NCBI GenBank assembly: GCA_016199325.1
Contig: JACQGW010000177.1
Span: 1-6,168 of the forward strand
Length of the DNA stretch: 6,168 nucleotides
Reading direction: 5' to 3'
Origin: Chloroflexota bacterium
GTDB lineage: Bacteria; Chloroflexota; Dehalococcoidia; JACQGW01
Each line of letters starts with the position of its first letter. The stretch's first letter is position 1. The notes under the pieces are model-generated. The model worked only from the letters and a program-made list of their open reading frames with translations. It was not told the origin of the DNA and ran no database searches. Below are positions 601-6,121 of the stretch, in pieces. Both the position numbers and the translations under genes were made by a program.

Positions 601-3144
601 CTACCGGTCGACCGGTGCGAACGTCTTGACGTAGTTCAGCACGTGCCAGCGGTCGGCATCGGTCAGCCGATCCTTGAACGCGGGCATCGCCGTGCCCGGC
701 AAACCGCCCGTAATCCACCCGTAGAGCTCCCCATCGGCGTGCGTCCCCACGTGCTGGCTCAGGTCGGCCGGGCGCGGGCGCAGCGTCGCCGCCAGCGGCC
801 CATCGCCCTGCCCACCGGGACCATGACAGGTCGCGCATTCCTGCTGGTAGAGCTGCCGCCCGCGGGCCAGCGACTCCTCCGTGGGCGGGTACGGGTTCAC
901 CAGATCCGCCGCGGCGGGGGACGACGGCGCCAGCAGCGCCCGGACCGAAAGGCCCGAGCCCAGCAGCGCCAACACACAGCCCACGGCGACGATGGCACGG
1001 CCACGGCTGCCCCTGGCTCTTCCCATCCGCAGCGTCCGCACCACCGCGGCAAGGCCCAGCGCCAGAGCGCCAACGCCAACCGCGAGTGGCGCCGCCACCA
1101 GCAGAGCCGAGTCGGCCGCAGCGCGACCCGAGTCGCCGGACCGACGCGAGCCGATCGGCAGCGCCAGCGTGGTCCGGACGTCGTCCTGTCCCGACCGGCG
1201 GACGAGCACTTCGACGCGCCAGGTCCCGCTCATCGAGGTGTAGAGGCCCTGGGCGAGATACCGGCCATCGCCCAGATCGCCGGCAACCGCCTCGGCCTCC
1301 CCCATCTCGTGCTCGACCATCGTGAAGATCAGCGCGACCTTCTGCGCTCCCGCCACCGGCCGGCCGGCGCCATCTCGGAGATACACGTCAAACGTATTGA
1401 ACGCCGGCTGGCCGGGATTCACGGCCACGACGACGCGCAGATCGGCGGCCTGGCCGCGCAGGATGAGGCCGGGGCCGAAGGCGTCACGCGCCGGCGGCAA
1501 GCTCGTCAGCACCGCCGCGGCCGCCAGCACCGCCGTTGCCAGGAGCGCCTCAGCGCCAACGGTTCGGCGCAGGTGTCGCCGGAGCGGCTCCCCCGCCTCG
1601 CCCCGCCCCGATTCGCCGATCTTCCTCGTCTCCCGCCTGGTGGCAAGGAAGCTCACGCCCGCCAGGCCCAGCAGCGGAACGATCAGCGCCGTCTTCGCCA
1701 GCAGCGCCGTCCCGTACGGCGTATCGAGCAGGTTCGCCCAATCGCCAACCTCGGCCACCGCCCGGTAGATGCCGGAGAGGACCACCGTGGCGACGCCGGC
1801 CGTCGCCACCCGCGAGAACCGCGCGACCAGCCCCGGAACCGGATTGGCCCTCCCGAGTCTATCGGTGCTGGGCAGCGTCCAATGAACGGCCGATCCCCGC
1901 AGGGGCGCCGGCCCGGGGTCGCCCTCGTCTCCCTCCCGCGCCGCACCTGCCTGGCGCAGTACCACCAGGAGCGCGCCCAGCCCACCGATCCACAGACTTG
2001 CCGCCACCAGATGGAGCCAGTCGATCGCCACGGCCACCGGAGCGCTCGCCCCGGCGGCGGCGTGGCTGCCGAGGCTCACCGTCAGCAGCGCCAGGCTGCT
2101 GAGCACCAGCCCGCACCACCACCACCACCGGCCGTGTACCGGCCGGGCTCGCCTCATCCGAACCCACAGCAGCCGGACCAGCACACCGAGCAGCGCGAGC
2201 AAGAGCAGCCGGGCCCAGAAGATCAGGCCGTACCGCGTGCCGCCGAGCAGCGCCGCCAGCGGCGCGCCCAGCGCCGCGAGCGGATCGACGCCGGCGCTGG
2301 CCGCCGCCTGGAGCACCGCGCCAACCAGGCTGGCCGCCGACGCCAGGCCCGCGCCGCCGATCAGCAGCACGACCAGGCCGGACGGCAACGGCGGGATGGC
2401 AGCCTCTCCCGCCTCCGCTGGAGCTGCCAGGCGACCGGCCGGCGTTGCCCGCGGGCGCTTTGGCGCGGGCGTGCGCGGCTCGGCCATCGCCGGCAGGAGG
2501 ACGAGCGGCACGAAGCCGAAGCCGCCGGCCAGGATCGCCATGCCGAGGTAGCCCAGCCAGCGCGCCGCGACAGCCGCCGGTGCCGGCCCTCCGGCACTCT
2601 CGGCGCCCGGTCCCCGGGCGCTGGGGCGCAGGCCGCCGGCCGGGACCTCGTCCCGGCCGACGGCGAAGGCGAAGGTGCCGGCGGTCACGTGGCCGTCGAC
2701 GGCCGACAACGCCCGCCAGACCACGGTATAGACGCCGGGCGGCAGCGGCGGAAGCGGCGCCCGCACGGCACCGGCGTCGGCCGGATCGGCGCGGAGCGGT
2801 CCGACCAGCTCCAGCCGCCGGCCCTCCCGGTCGAGCAGATGCACCTCGCAGAACCGCAGCTCGACCGCCTCCGAAAACCACAGGCGCAGCTCGCCCGGCG
2901 CCGCGTCCAGCACCGCGTTGGCCTCCGGCTCCGACCGAACGAGGTTGGCGTGCGCCAGCGCCAGCCCGTGCCCCACGACCACCATTACCAGGCCGAGCAC
3001 CAGACCGCGCAGCAGCGCCGGACCGCGGAACGGGTTTCTGGTTTCTGGTTTGGGGTTTCTGGTTTGGGGGCTCCGGTCTCTGGCTGAGGGGGCGCGCCGC
3101 CCCCACCAGAAACCAGAAACCAGAAACCACGAGGCCCGTCTCAT
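601..3144 (-). CDS. CopC-CopD copper resistance/transport fusion with YtkA/FixH-like and cytochrome c domains
   Basis: This 847-residue protein carries four modules. A Sec signal core (about 43-64) precedes a CopC domain (65-163) whose mature N-terminus would be His65; with Asp150 and His152 in the AVDGH motif this matches the Cu(II) site of CopC. A CopD membrane region follows (about 196-548), with roughly eight segments and the typical motif around His378 (DWLHLVAASLWIGGLG), plus His361. Residues 560-665 form a YtkA/FixH-like domain. Two more segments (about 680-703, 717-737) lead to a cytochrome c with haem site CATCH (770-774) and likely Met820 ligand in GTAMPAF. Even segment numbers place CopC, YtkA and haem all outside. 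The CopC-CopD-YtkA order resembles YcnJ-like copper importers; the haem domain is an addition. ATG at 3144 overlaps the upstream stop (ATGA), indicating translational coupling. Residues 7-39 are encoded by a heptamer repeat element, so the pre-signal region is abnormally long. Direction of copper transport is inferred, not shown. Confidence 0.93.
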   Translation of the reverse strand: MRRASWFLVSGFWWGRRAPSARDRSPQTRNPKPETRNPFRGPALLRGLVLGLVMVVVGHGLALAHANLVRSEPEANAVLDAAPGELRLWFSEAVELRFCEVHLLDREGRRLELVGPLRADPADAGAVRAPLPPLPPGVYTVVWRALSAVDGHVTAGTFAFAVGRDEVPAGGLRPSARGPGAESAGGPAPAAVAARWLGYLGMAILAGGFGFVPLVLLPAMAEPRTPAPKRPRATPAGRLAAPAEAGEAAIPPLPSGLVVLLIGGAGLASAASLVGAVLQAAASAGVDPLAALGAPLAALLGGTRYGLIFWARLLLLALLGVLVRLLWVRMRRARPVHGRWWWWCGLVLSSLALLTVSLGSHAAAGASAPVAVAIDWLHLVAASLWIGGLGALLVVLRQAGAAREGDEGDPGPAPLRGSAVHWTLPSTDRLGRANPVPGLVARFSRVATAGVATVVLSGIYRAVAEVGDWANLLDTPYGTALLAKTALIVPLLGLAGVSFLATRRETRKIGESGRGEAGEPLRRHLRRTVGAEALLATAVLAAAAVLTSLPPARDAFGPGLILRGQAADLRVVVAVNPGQPAFNTFDVYLRDGAGRPVAGAQKVALIFTMVEHEMGEAEAVAGDLGDGRYLAQGLYTSMSGTWRVEVLVRRSGQDDVRTTLALPIGSRRSGDSGRAAADSALLVAAPLAVGVGALALGLAAVVRTLRMGRARGSRGRAIVAVGCVLALLGSGLSVRALLAPSSPAAADLVNPYPPTEESLARGRQLYQQECATCHGPGGQGDGPLAATLRPRPADLSQHVGTHADGELYGWITGGLPGTAMPAFKDRLTDADRWHVLNYVKTFAPVDR
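3033..3128. repeat. 96-bp heptamer-based inverted repeat inside the copper fusion gene
   Basis: The left arm (3033-3051) and right arm (3110-3128) are a perfect 19-bp inverted repeat made of heptamers: GGTTTCT/GGTTTGG units on the left (five in a row, 3033-3067) and three CCAGAAA units on the right. The centre holds a further hairpin, GGGGGC (3088-3093) with GCCCCC (3099-3104). ACG flanks both sides (3030-3032 and 3129-3131), like a 3-bp target duplication. The element is 96 bp, exactly 32 codons, and lies in frame within codons 6-38 of the fusion gene. Removing it together with one ACG copy joins MRRAS directly to FRGPALLRG and yields an ordinary signal peptide. Confidence 0.85.
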
Positions 3145-3818: not shown

Positions 3819-3899
3819 GTCATGCTGAGCCGCAGCGAAGCATCTCCCGCGGTGGAGCCAGCAGCGTCCGGGAGATGCTTCGCTGCGGCTCAGCATGAC
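3819..3899. repeat. 31-bp perfect inverted repeat with 19-base loop
   Basis: The arms at 3819-3849 and 3869-3899 are exact reverse complements over 31 bp and begin GTCATGCTGAGCCGCAGCG. The loop is 3850-3868. It sits between the end of the His-rich gene (3943) and the ribosome binding site of the next gene (3776-3781). I recall palindromes of this GTCATGCTGAGC...CGAAGCATCTC type scattered between genes in Chloroflexota and other phyla, so it is probably a multi-copy REP/MITE-like element. In transcripts of either strand it would form a very stable hairpin. It has no U-tract on either side, so it is not a classical terminator, but it could cut read-through or protect an mRNA end. Confidence 0.9.
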
Positions 3900-4405: not shown

Positions 4406-4520
4406 CGTCATACGTCATGGGACGAGTGCCACAAACTCCAGATCGGATAATTGGCGCAGTGTCTGGCGAAAACCGATCTGGAGTCTATGGCACCCGTCCC
4501 GTCATGCGTCATGCGTGAGG
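4406..4520. repeat. 28-bp inverted repeat flanked by CGTCATN heptamers
   Basis: The arms at 4419-4446 and 4473-4500 match in reverse complement at 25 of 28 positions, with a 26-base spacer. All three differences (pairs 4425/4494, 4432/4487, 4434/4485) become G.U pairs in an RNA copied from the minus strand, so that transcript could fold into an uninterrupted 28-bp hairpin. The minus strand is the direction of the His-rich gene starting at 4365, so the hairpin may lie in its leader. Heptamers CGTCATA and CGTCATG (4406-4419) precede it, and CGTCATG twice (4500-4513) plus CGTGAGG follow. GTCAT directly abuts both ends (4414-4418, 4501-4505) and could be a target duplication or simply part of the heptamers. 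No protein gene is supported in 4366-4583. Confidence 0.8.
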
Positions 4521-4583
4521 CTTTGCTTCTCCTGCGAGTATAGGGCAGCCACCGCGAATGCTTCAACCCGTATGGTCGTCTGC

Positions 4584-4612
4584 TTGACAACGCCCCACGG
4601 CCGTGGTATGAT
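4584..4612 (+). promoter_or_regulatory. Strong sigma-70 promoter of RNA copy A and the potassium channel gene
   Basis: TTGACA (4584-4589) matches the -35 consensus fully and TATGAT (4607-4612) matches the -10 at five of six bases, with the optimal 17-base spacer. Transcription should begin near 4619-4620, right at the 5' end of the conserved RNA unit. The spacer contains a perfect 12-bp palindrome CCACGGCCGTGG (4595-4606) touching the -10, a plausible operator; copy B's spacer lacks it. The fourteen bases TCGTCTGCTTGACA (from 4576) are identical in the second copy. Confidence 0.85.
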
Positions 4613-4618
4613 GGAGAT

Positions 4619-4771
4619 GTCCCGAGCGGTTGAGTAAGGTAAACCCGCTGGACCGTAGGATACCGAACGCTGAGTAGGTGGAAGCCGGGGGAACCCGGTG
4701 GAAGCCGAGAGGCGCATAGGGCACTGAAGGCTGGCGGGGTACACCGAAAGGTCGCTCGGGGCATTTCTTTT
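4619..4771 (+). ncRNA. Candidate structured RNA, copy A; leader of the potassium channel mRNA
   Basis: This ~150-nt RNA shares long identical blocks with a second copy at 5622-5779. Its 5' CCCGAGCG (4621-4628) pairs with 3' CGCTCGGG (4753-4760), followed by GCATTTCTTTT, so the closing stem plus U-tract resembles an intrinsic terminator or the end of a free small RNA. Inner elements are GGTT/AACC closing a loop (4628-4645), a hairpin GCCGGG-GGAA-CCCGGT (4684-4699) and GCC-GAGA-GGC (4704-4713). The blocks GGATACCGAAC and GAGTAGG and the run GGGCACYGAAGGCYGGCGG are conserved between copies. I do not recognise it as tRNA, RNase P RNA, tmRNA, SRP RNA, or a riboswitch whose consensus I can recall; a 6S-like RNA is not excluded. 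The U-tract ends eight bases before the channel's ribosome binding site and no other promoter fits between, so channel expression must read through it. It could be a cis-regulatory leader, a processed small RNA, or both. Confidence 0.72.
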
Positions 4772-4778
4772 CCTACCT

Positions 4779-4783
4779 GGGAG
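4779..4783 (+). promoter_or_regulatory. Ribosome binding site of the potassium channel gene
   Basis: GGGAG lies six bases before the GTG start at 4790. It supports that start and sits only eight bases beyond the U-tract of RNA copy A, so folding of the RNA's 3' end could affect access to it. Confidence 0.6.
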
Positions 4784-4789
4784 CCGGCT

Positions 4790-5590
4790 GTGGGCAAACG
4801 AGGCGAAGTGGGGGTCCGCCGACGGGTCGCCGGGGATCTGCGAGCACTCCAGCGGACCCTCGACGTCGTCGTCGCACTGGCCGCGTTCCTCACCGTCCCG
4901 CTCATCATCGCTCAGGAGCGCGGCGCCACCGATCCCCTGATCGCCGTCGCCGACTGGCTTGTCTGGGCGGTCTTTCTCGGCGAATACGTCGCCATGCTCG
5001 CGCTCTCGCCGAACCGGCACGGCTACGTCCGGGGGAGCTGGCTCAGCGCCGCCGTCGTCGTCCTCTCCTTTCCGCTGCTGCCGACTCTCCTCGGTGTCGT
5101 GCGGCTCGTGCGGCTTGCCCGACTCCTCCGACTCGCCCTCATCACCTGGCGGGGGCTCGGCGCGCTCCGCCGCGTCCTCGGCCGGCGCGGGTTCGCCCAC
5201 GTCGCCACCCTCAGCGTCCTGCTGGTGCTCGCCGGCGGCGCCGCCCTGGCCCTCCTGGAGCCCGACACGGTCAAGGGCGACCTCGGCAATGGACTCTGGT
5301 GGGCCGTCGTCACGGCGACCACCGTCGGCTACGGCGACATCGCCCCGGCAACAATCTGGGGCAAGCTGGTTGGCGTCGCCCTCATGCTCACCGGCGTCGG
5401 GCTCATCTCGACCCTGGCAGCCTCGACCGCCGCCTACTTCGTCGGCCAGGACGAAGGCCCGGACCTGCAAGATCTGGCGAGCCGACTGGACCGGGTCGAG
5501 GCCCTTCTGCACCAGATCCTCGAAACCTCCGCCGCCGCTACGCGACCAGATGACGGTCCCCCCCCCGCCGGCGGAAGCTCGTCTGCTTGA
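4790..5590 (+). CDS. Six-TM voltage-gated-type potassium channel
   Basis: The 266-residue product has the layout of a voltage-gated-type cation channel. S1 is about 22-41, S2 about 50-72 with acidic Glu65, S3 about 84-98, and S4 about 101-119 with arginines at every third position (105, 108, 111, 114), then Arg121. S5 is about 136-156 and the pore loop holds the potassium filter TTVGYGD (177-183). S6 is about 189-218. The cytoplasmic tail has a short coiled-coil-like helix (225-247, DLQDLASRLDRVEALLHQIL) that could help tetramer assembly, then a Pro/Gly/Ser tail. There is no RCK/TrkA-N or cyclic-nucleotide domain, so any ligand gating must come from elsewhere. Four subunits should form a potassium pore in the cytoplasmic membrane. 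The start is GTG with GGGAG six bases upstream. The gene follows structured RNA copy A directly, and its TGA stop overlaps the -35 box of copy B, so it is framed by the two RNA units. Confidence 0.93.
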   Translation: MGKRGEVGVRRRVAGDLRALQRTLDVVVALAAFLTVPLIIAQERGATDPLIAVADWLVWAVFLGEYVAMLALSPNRHGYVRGSWLSAAVVVLSFPLLPTLLGVVRLVRLARLLRLALITWRGLGALRRVLGRRGFAHVATLSVLLVLAGGAALALLEPDTVKGDLGNGLWWAVVTATTVGYGDIAPATIWGKLVGVALMLTGVGLISTLAASTAAYFVGQDEGPDLQDLASRLDRVEALLHQILETSAAATRPDDGPPPAGGSSSA

Positions 5591-5615
5591 CAGGCCCGAG
5601 CGGATCTGTTATTCT
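5587..5615 (+). promoter_or_regulatory. Strong sigma-70 promoter of RNA copy B
   Basis: TTGACA (5587-5592) and TATTCT (5610-5615) are 17 bases apart, placing the start of transcription near 5622. The -35 box contains the TGA stop codon (5588-5590) of the potassium channel gene. The preceding TCGTCTGC matches the same positions in front of copy A, showing that the promoter is part of the duplicated unit. Confidence 0.8.
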
Positions 5616-5621
5616 GAAAGA

Positions 5622-5779
5622 GTCCCGAGCGGTTGAGTACGGGCAACCCGCAGGACTGGAGGATACCGAACTCCGAGTAGGCAGGCGTTGGGGGCCCCCC
5701 CGACGGCGGCCGAAAGGCGAAGAGGGCACCGAAGGCCGGCGGCAGAAGCCCGAAAAGGTCGCTCGGGGCATTTCTTTTT
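5622..5779 (+). ncRNA. Candidate structured RNA, copy B
   Basis: This is a diverged second copy of the RNA at 4619-4771. The closing stem is CCCGAGCG (5624-5631) with CGCTCGGG (5760-5767), followed by GCATTTCTTTTT. The GGTT/AACC loop, GGATACCGAAC, GAGTAGG and the GGGCACYGAAGGCYGGCGG block are kept. The central hairpin has changed in sequence but not in form: GTTGGGG (5687-5693) pairs with CCCCGAC (5698-5704), replacing the six-pair stem of copy A. The next small hairpin keeps its GCC/GGC stem and changes its loop from GAGA to GAAA (5709-5718), both GNRA. This pairing-preserving change supports selection on RNA structure. Unlike copy A, no gene with a ribosome binding site follows within about 390 bases, so this copy looks like a free-standing small RNA ending at its U-tract. 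Confidence 0.72.
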
Positions 5780-5818: not shown

Positions 5819-5974
5819 CGAACCCCCCGCCATCGGCGCGTGTGCAGCGGAACCCCATCCGGCATAACGCATGCCCCCCGCCCCATGACGCATGACGTAT
5901 GACGCATGACGTATGACGCACGACCCCGCCACCTGCACGGTTGCAGTGGGAACCCATCTGGCGCGGTAGTGCAT
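5819..5974. repeat. Imperfect ~54-bp direct repeats flanking the heptamer array
   Basis: Positions 5819-5872 and 5921-5974 are alignable with small gaps. Shared landmarks in order are CGA-CCCC-GCC, TGCAGYGG, AACCC, ATCYGGC and a terminal GCAT. The YATGACG array lies between them. This looks like an old duplication or two halves of a degenerate mobile element; it has no coding signal. Confidence 0.5.
5884..5925. repeat. YATGACG heptamer tandem array
   Basis: Five consecutive heptamers CATGACG, CATGACG, TATGACG, CATGACG, TATGACG run from 5884 to 5918, followed by a degenerate CACGACC. The reverse complement CGTCATG/CGTCATA is the same heptamer that flanks the hairpin at 4406-4513. Confidence 0.9.
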
Positions 5975-6009: not shown

Positions 6010-6121
6010 TGTCATGAGTCCACTGAAAAAAGCCGGATCGCGCGTATCCGACTGGCGGAAACACTCGTGAAATCGGTGCGTGAACCGCGCCAGAGGGCCT
6101 TCTTTCAGGGGACTCATGACA
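6010..6121. repeat. 112-bp element with 25-bp inverted ends (MITE-like)
   Basis: The left end (6010-6034) and right end (6097-6121) match in reverse complement at 22 of 25 positions, starting TGTCATGAGTCC at each outer edge. The interior (6035-6096) has a small stem CGGAT/ATCCG around GCGCG (from 6034) and no coding frame. The size and inverted ends suit a non-autonomous mobile element, but I see no clear target-site duplication. Confidence 0.6.

Follow-up and report, generated by a model that had tools for sequence, protein, structure and literature searches.

A stand-alone structured RNA gene family of Chloroflexota that has no Rfam match and often lies beside hpt

The stretch of Chloroflexota DNA analysed here (6,168 nucleotides of contig JACQGW010000177.1, hereafter "the window") carries two copies of a structured RNA gene, and we are nearly certain that the RNA gene family they represent is genuine and has no match in Rfam 15. 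What is new is the family; stand-alone structured RNA genes as such are of a known kind. Our preferred reading, to which we would assign a probability of roughly 0.45, is that the RNA is transcribed on its own and regulates by binding a protein, with a probable tie to HPRT or to purine status; transcription, partner and function are what we infer here. A structured RNA that is kept across classes, amplified in some genomes and absent from Rfam suggests an RNA function as yet undescribed, in bacteria that have received little study.

A first-pass annotation, made from the letters of the window, had described two paralogous units bracketing a potassium channel gene, and this arrangement is indeed present. 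When the window is compared with itself, positions 4569-4696 and 5572-5699 match at 73% over 128 nt without a gap, and both units finish with an identical 25-nt end (4747-4771 and 5754-5778); the local alignment of the two copies scores 85, whereas 1000 dinucleotide shuffles give 19 at most. Copy 1 is an unbranched rod of about 150 nt (4619-4771, forward strand; 135.6 bits with our covariance model R1 and 127.6 bits with R3), and copy 2, on the same strand, measures about 158 nt (5622-5779; 82.2 and 79.5 bits, respectively). The sequence shared ahead of the -35 box and the sigma-70 promoter with a 17-bp spacer, both claimed earlier, were found for each copy: a common 14-nt box, TCGTCTGCTTGACA (4576-4589 and 5579-5592), has as its last six bases the -35 hexamer TTGACA (4584-4589 and 5587-5592), and after 17 bp comes a -10 hexamer, TATGAT at 4607-4612 for copy 1 and TATTCT at 5610-5615 for copy 2, which ends 5 nt before the modelled unit. 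The unit itself is closed by a stem, P1, whose strands lie at 4619-4631 and 4750-4762 in copy 1 (seen in fold, consensus and covariation) and at 5622-5634 and 5757-5769 in copy 2 (fold and consensus). An identical closing stem of 8 bp had been proposed; the stem is there, but it is 13 bp long (GUCCCGAGCGGUU / GGUCGCUCGGGGC). After P1 follows a T-rich tail with seven T in eight positions, terminator-like in copy 1 (4763-4771) and similar in copy 2 (5770-5779). At the other end of the rod, the apical hairpin GCCGGG-GGAA-CCCGGU of copy 1 (4684-4699) is replaced in copy 2 by GUUGGGG...CCCCGAC (5687-5704), and the folds of both copies agree with the earlier remark that this central hairpin has been rewritten with its pairing kept.

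The gene between the two RNA genes codes for a potassium-type ion channel of 266 aa (4790-5590, forward strand; PF07885 and PF00520); it starts about 27 nt after the end of copy 1, and at its other end the stop codon and the -35 box of copy 2 overlap. Extra copies of the RNA in other genomes adjoin varied genes (ftsZ, an AMP-binding enzyme, a phosphoketolase and others), which suggests that the channel gene is probably an incidental neighbour. The neighbour that recurs elsewhere is hpt, while the channel gene is no constant partner; in the window itself no hpt is shown. The window has other features of its own. On its minus strand (601-3144) a single ORF unites CopC, CopD, YtkA-like and cytochrome c domains in a copper/cytochrome fusion. 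Three long inverted repeats with arms of 31, 28 and 23 nt (3819-3899, 4419-4500 and 6010-6121, respectively) are apparently intergenic; miRNA-type Rfam matches coincide with the first two and fall off the RNA units. Finally, repeats of the CATGACG type lie on either side of the RNA-channel-RNA block, at 4406-4521 and 5872-5911, with opposite orientations.

Compared with shuffled versions, copy 1 folds better (z -4.4, none of 200 as good) and copy 2 only modestly so (z -1.9, 7 of 200 as good), and for this reason the claim of a conserved structure rests on covariation and not on folding energy. Alignment A3 was made without structure from the first 25 sequences; A5, A8 and A9 were fitted to the model, and A8 and A9 lean toward the fold. 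In A3, 96.5% of the cells pair and 15 of 30 pairs show changes on both sides, and the covariation score of 0.326 is attained by none of 500 shuffles, for which it is 0.164; when the partners are slid by one to three columns, pairing falls to 29-52% and the score to 0.11 at most. Double changes occur in 24 of 30 pairs of A8, and in 25 of 30 pairs of A9, which consists of 20 later-found sequences from outside the set used to build R3 and in which 92.0% of the cells pair. Sliding A9 by +1 leaves 18 of 30 pairs doubly changed, but only 49% of the cells then pair and the score shrinks from its original 0.587 to 0.143. For A3, A8 and A9 alike, the observed values lie beyond all 500 shuffles on each of five measures. 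The signature of a selected structured RNA, announced by the annotation from two copies, is thus borne out by compensatory changes beyond both shuffled and slid controls.

The minimum free energy fold is a single unbranched hairpin rod in 67 of 73 units, and its internal loops are short, conserved and purine-rich, without a large open bubble. The GAGA/GAAA element had been read as a GNRA tetraloop, and here we disagree: in the consensus fold it forms one strand of an internal loop that faces AGUA. This recurring AGUA opposite GAA has the look of a candidate bulged-G (loop E) motif. One copy (L006) is devoid of the apical hairpin, though it could still finish with a GGAA loop. No reading frame is open in all 69 units checked for coding, and on the minus strand one frame is open in 55 and another in 49 of them; we nevertheless disfavour an antisense ORF, because the lengths of the units vary by non-multiples of three and the stems covary.

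Promoter and T-run lie outside the models R1 to R3 and were scored separately, by sequence match only. For 69 units, the promoter match at the fixed offset has a mean of 9.0 out of 12, compared with 5.5 for 20,000 positions drawn at random from these loci. A match of at least 9 is reached by 41 of the 69 units and by 0.6% of the random positions; the match is weak (7 or less) in 6 of 69. Leaving aside two units at contig ends, 52 of 67 are followed by a T-run, with a background of 2.1%. Many units are close relatives, so that a fairer test is provided by the 16 loci L167-L182, from genomes first reached with R3. There the promoter match is 9 or more in 15 of 16, which argues that even matches of 31-40 bits are real genes. 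In three Bacillota copies viewed by eye, TTTACA and TATA-like boxes are present. The idea that each copy is a complete gene with its own promoter therefore agrees with signals that recur at fixed positions, as judged by these matches.

As for the distribution of the family, a pattern scan placed this RNA in the Chloroflexi MAGs FW602_bin.16 (four copies) and NC_groundwater_656 (one copy), at 80-94% identity. It gave seven matches in genome contigs, of which L003 and L005 were left out as chance matches; R3 found nothing in their genomes, G550 and G551. Covariance models grown from the units were then available from 25 (R1), 34 (R2) and 48 (R3) sequences, and with these, homologues were found across Chloroflexota. 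Their E-values are rough, and counts from genome draws of more than 40, which used stricter filters, are lower bounds: R1 places the family in 27 of 400 Chloroflexota genomes (two of them weak). Within the class of G243 (197 genomes), R2 finds it in 14 and R3 in 30. In two control phyla, R3 finds it in 2 of 149 genomes of the phylum of G550, which we take as Bacillota, and in 0 of 141 genomes of the phylum of G551, which we take as Cyanobacteriota. We used the R1 count in place of a BLAST search that returned 34 of 400 genomes at E<=0.01, several of these matches being fragments of 20-30 bases. In the class of G002, R2 matched 8 of 29 genomes (all listed); 3 of the 8 (L129-L131) show merely 45-nt hairpins and were left out, giving 5. 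The Bacillota copies score 29-33 bits only. The main clade would be a third class, being absent from the class of G002 (29 genomes) and from the hits in the class of G243 (197 genomes).

The copy number, a further point raised at first pass, goes up to seven per genome: six genomes have three to seven R3 matches (7 in G457, 5 in G243 and G394, 4 in G001 and G532, 3 in G116), many of the second copies being counted as model matches. Two of the contigs of G001, C34 and C100, end just after the RNA (loci L001 and L007); assemblies end in this way at repeats, so more than four copies may exist in this genome. In another genome (L083), a unit on the minus strand at 5001-5140 is followed almost directly by a weaker second one (4910-4998, 28.9 bits), and the two may be made as one tandem RNA. 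The window copy at 4618-4763 is 93-94% alike to the RNAs at L001, L002, L004 and L007, which belong to G001 (three of its four copies) and to G002. G001 and G002 belong to different classes despite this likeness, and transfer or mis-binned MAG contigs are possible explanations. Searches for carriage by viruses with two patterns, both of which reach close relatives only, gave 0 viral contigs with one and 4 with the other, with 0 model matches among them, and copy 1 used as query had no match in phage and plasmid collections.

Such multiplicity, together with the two G001 contigs that break off just after a unit, could bring to mind a dispersed repeat or mobile element without any RNA function. 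We hold this to be very improbable, since the helices covary and the promoters recur, and the locus beside hpt is kept while the RNA itself drifts down to 30-40 bits.

The annotation could not assign the units to a known family, and the Rfam scans agree. The window compared with Rfam 15 at E<=10 gives no significant match on either unit, the sole fragment being DUF805b on copy 2 at a chance-level 13.8 bits (gathering score 35.6). Twenty homologue loci have 0 matches at the gathering thresholds, and in 14 loci, mostly divergent, scanned at E<=0.1, RNase P, tRNA and weak matches all fall off the units or on the opposite strand. The parts consulted of the open-access literature searched, including PMC11109978, PMC2864571, PMC8632094 and PMC8152036, contain no description of the family, which leaves its absence from print unproven.

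The recurrent neighbour is hpt, the gene of the purine salvage enzyme hypoxanthine-guanine phosphoribosyltransferase (HPRT). In the main clade, the RNA and hpt point toward each other, and the RNA and a thiolase gene point apart. With wider flanks a copy near hpt is seen in 14 of 16 genomes of this clade; the two exceptions, G361 and G397, have contigs that stop 0.7 and 1.5 kb past the RNA. In the class of G243, hpt is near the RNA in 20 of the 30 R3-positive genomes, and the remaining 10 have no hpt in their flanks (about 1.5-5 kb, some cut by contig ends). At ten wide-flank loci of this class the RNA is convergent with hpt and lies 37-188 nt from the edge of the hpt alignment; the gene beyond hpt varies, being ribonucleotide reductase at 7 of the 10. 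At L167-L182, hpt is within 1.5 kb in 10 of 16 cases, eight facing the RNA and two on the same strand. Both Bacillota genomes (2/2) have hpt between two RNA copies, all on one strand, and the copies are spaced about 760-775 nt. There are thus three arrangements, namely convergent, same strand after hpt (L176, L180) and RNA-hpt-RNA (Bacillota). By comparison, hpt was found in 0 of 5 positive genomes of the class of G002 (flanks of about 1.5-5 kb, some cut by contig ends) and at 0 of 32 control loci, which represent 29 separate places near 6S, SRP or chance matches and have flanks of about 1-1.5 kb. Of the proteins encoded by the neighbouring gene, 7 of 7 tested pass the HPRT cut-off TIGR01203. 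At L092 (5231-6676), the HPRT beside the RNA is a protein of 481 aa with an N-terminal GAF domain, and relatives of similar length exist at other loci. The hpt linkage may be inherited synteny, with the lineages within a class not independent of one another.

The position of the RNA relative to its neighbours also bears on two cis or antisense readings, both of which we consider improbable. According to the first, the RNA would be a leader or attenuator in which P1 and the T-run stop transcription ahead of a downstream gene unless a ligand or protein intervenes. In its favour, the channel gene does begin some 27 nt past the end of copy 1, and hpt follows closely after one of the Bacillota copies. 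At 21 loci without hpt, a crude pick of the longest ORF gives a downstream ORF oriented like the RNA in 12 cases, one oriented the opposite way in 6 and none in 3 (L105 is doubtful in this pick, as ftsZ there is on the other strand). The genes downstream of other copies are, however, heterogeneous, and at hpt-linked Chloroflexota loci hpt mostly faces the RNA, which consequently is mostly not a leader there. Going by the 12 of 21 same-strand ORFs of this crude pick, some extra copies may be leaders.

The second of these readings, a small RNA that controls mRNAs by base pairing, for example that of hpt or of a neighbouring gene, would suit a promoter-driven intergenic RNA. Most of its bases, however, sit in the rod. 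We made 13 duplex predictions with the start regions of neighbouring genes (11 of hpt, with starts taken from alignment ends or ORF starts, and 2 of the channel gene), and 12 of them are within one standard deviation of shuffles. The one that is stronger (L187, z -3.2) uses a region that overlaps the RNA's own end by 13 nt, which is probably why it stood out. Freely covarying stems combined with conserved loops point instead to an RNA that binds a protein and works in trans rather than by pairing with an mRNA.

The preferred reading, a protein-binding RNA tied to HPRT or to purine status, can then be described as follows. Each unit would be a complete small RNA gene in which a sigma-70-type promoter directs synthesis of an RNA of about 110-165 nt with a closing stem, and the T-run after this stem would end transcription. 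The product would fold as one unbranched rod, with conserved purine-rich internal loops between short helices, and would act in trans by binding a protein, putatively HPRT. A copy beside hpt is frequent and probably ancestral, and extra copies, such as the two of the window, would raise the RNA dose. The recurrent linkage to hpt in differing arrangements suggests HPRT, or a purine-responsive factor, as the partner; repeated placement in three arrangements and apparently two phyla at least provides a concrete candidate. As the likeliest mechanism, the RNA would join HPRT, or some factor that senses purine status, in a ribonucleoprotein, RNA and enzyme regulating each other. There is a precedent in PyrR, a phosphoribosyltransferase that is an RNA-binding regulator. 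In B. subtilis, HprT together with TilS is reported as a DNA-binding activator of ftsH (PMC8152036). We regard an HPRT-linked protein-binding mechanism as tentative, its odds lying from about three in ten to slightly short of even. Its most specific form stands at the lower end of this range and is rather doubtful: that the RNA family, so far undescribed and present in Chloroflexota and some Bacillota, has HPRT as its dedicated partner in a ribonucleoprotein, in which purine or PRPP levels would control how active the RNA or the enzyme is, the pair paralleling PyrR but with an RNA that is stand-alone and multi-copy. If HPRT does bind this RNA, a textbook salvage enzyme would gain an RNA-based regulatory role.

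The main rival to the HPRT reading is a 6S-like role, in which the rod would be abundant and would modulate transcription by binding RNA polymerase, serving as a second or replacement 6S. We consider it unlikely, but clearly less so than the leader or base-pairing readings. An unbranched rod with its own promoter and terminator signals and with extra copies would fit, and 6S likewise has a conserved neighbour (ygfA) in proteobacteria. The 6S model RF00013 finds 6S in 97 of 400 genomes of the phylum, yet in only 6 of 38 carriers of the RNA, four of them weakly (G255, G361, G377 and G397, at places other than the units); 32 of 38 carriers are left with no recognised 6S, and there the RNA may have a 6S-like role. 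On the other hand, in carriers G001 (70.7 bits) and G171 (68.7 bits) a 6S over the cut-off exists at another place, on a separate contig, and identity with the annotated 6S is rejected for these two genomes. Moreover, RF00013 matches no unit scanned (window at E<=10, 20 loci at gathering, 14 loci at E<=0.1), and the internal loops are short and conserved where a large open bubble would be expected. Should RNA polymerase turn out to bind this RNA, it would be a new kind of 6S-like regulator.

Several known systems invite comparison. 6S RNA (RF00013) is an unbranched rod encoded by a stand-alone gene with promoter and terminator signals, sometimes in several copies, and in these respects our RNA is alike; it is, however, shorter, is not matched by the 6S model, and has short conserved loops in place of the large central bubble of 6S. 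Bacterial SRP RNA (RF00169) is also a rod with conserved purine-rich internal loops, but it sits at its own, separate place in 35 of 38 carriers and gives no match on the units scanned; identity with it is rejected for these 35 genomes. The PyrR-binding RNA of pyr leaders shares the link to a phosphoribosyltransferase gene, and the 5' string GUCC-GAG-GG-U of our RNA resembles, as we see it, the PyrR loop. The partner gene is pyrR in one case and hpt in the other, and in the scans made the units have no Rfam match to the PyrR element or to a riboswitch-type leader; in our RNA, in contrast to the PyrR-binding one, the PyrR-like string is inside a long-range stem of a stand-alone rod of 110-165 nt. 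Lastly, the Chloroflexi-1 motif (RF01698), which a table of PMC2864571 reports as a candidate RNA from Chloroflexi and lists for Chloroflexus aggregans, is comparable as a candidate RNA of the same group, but gave no match in the Rfam 15 scans made.
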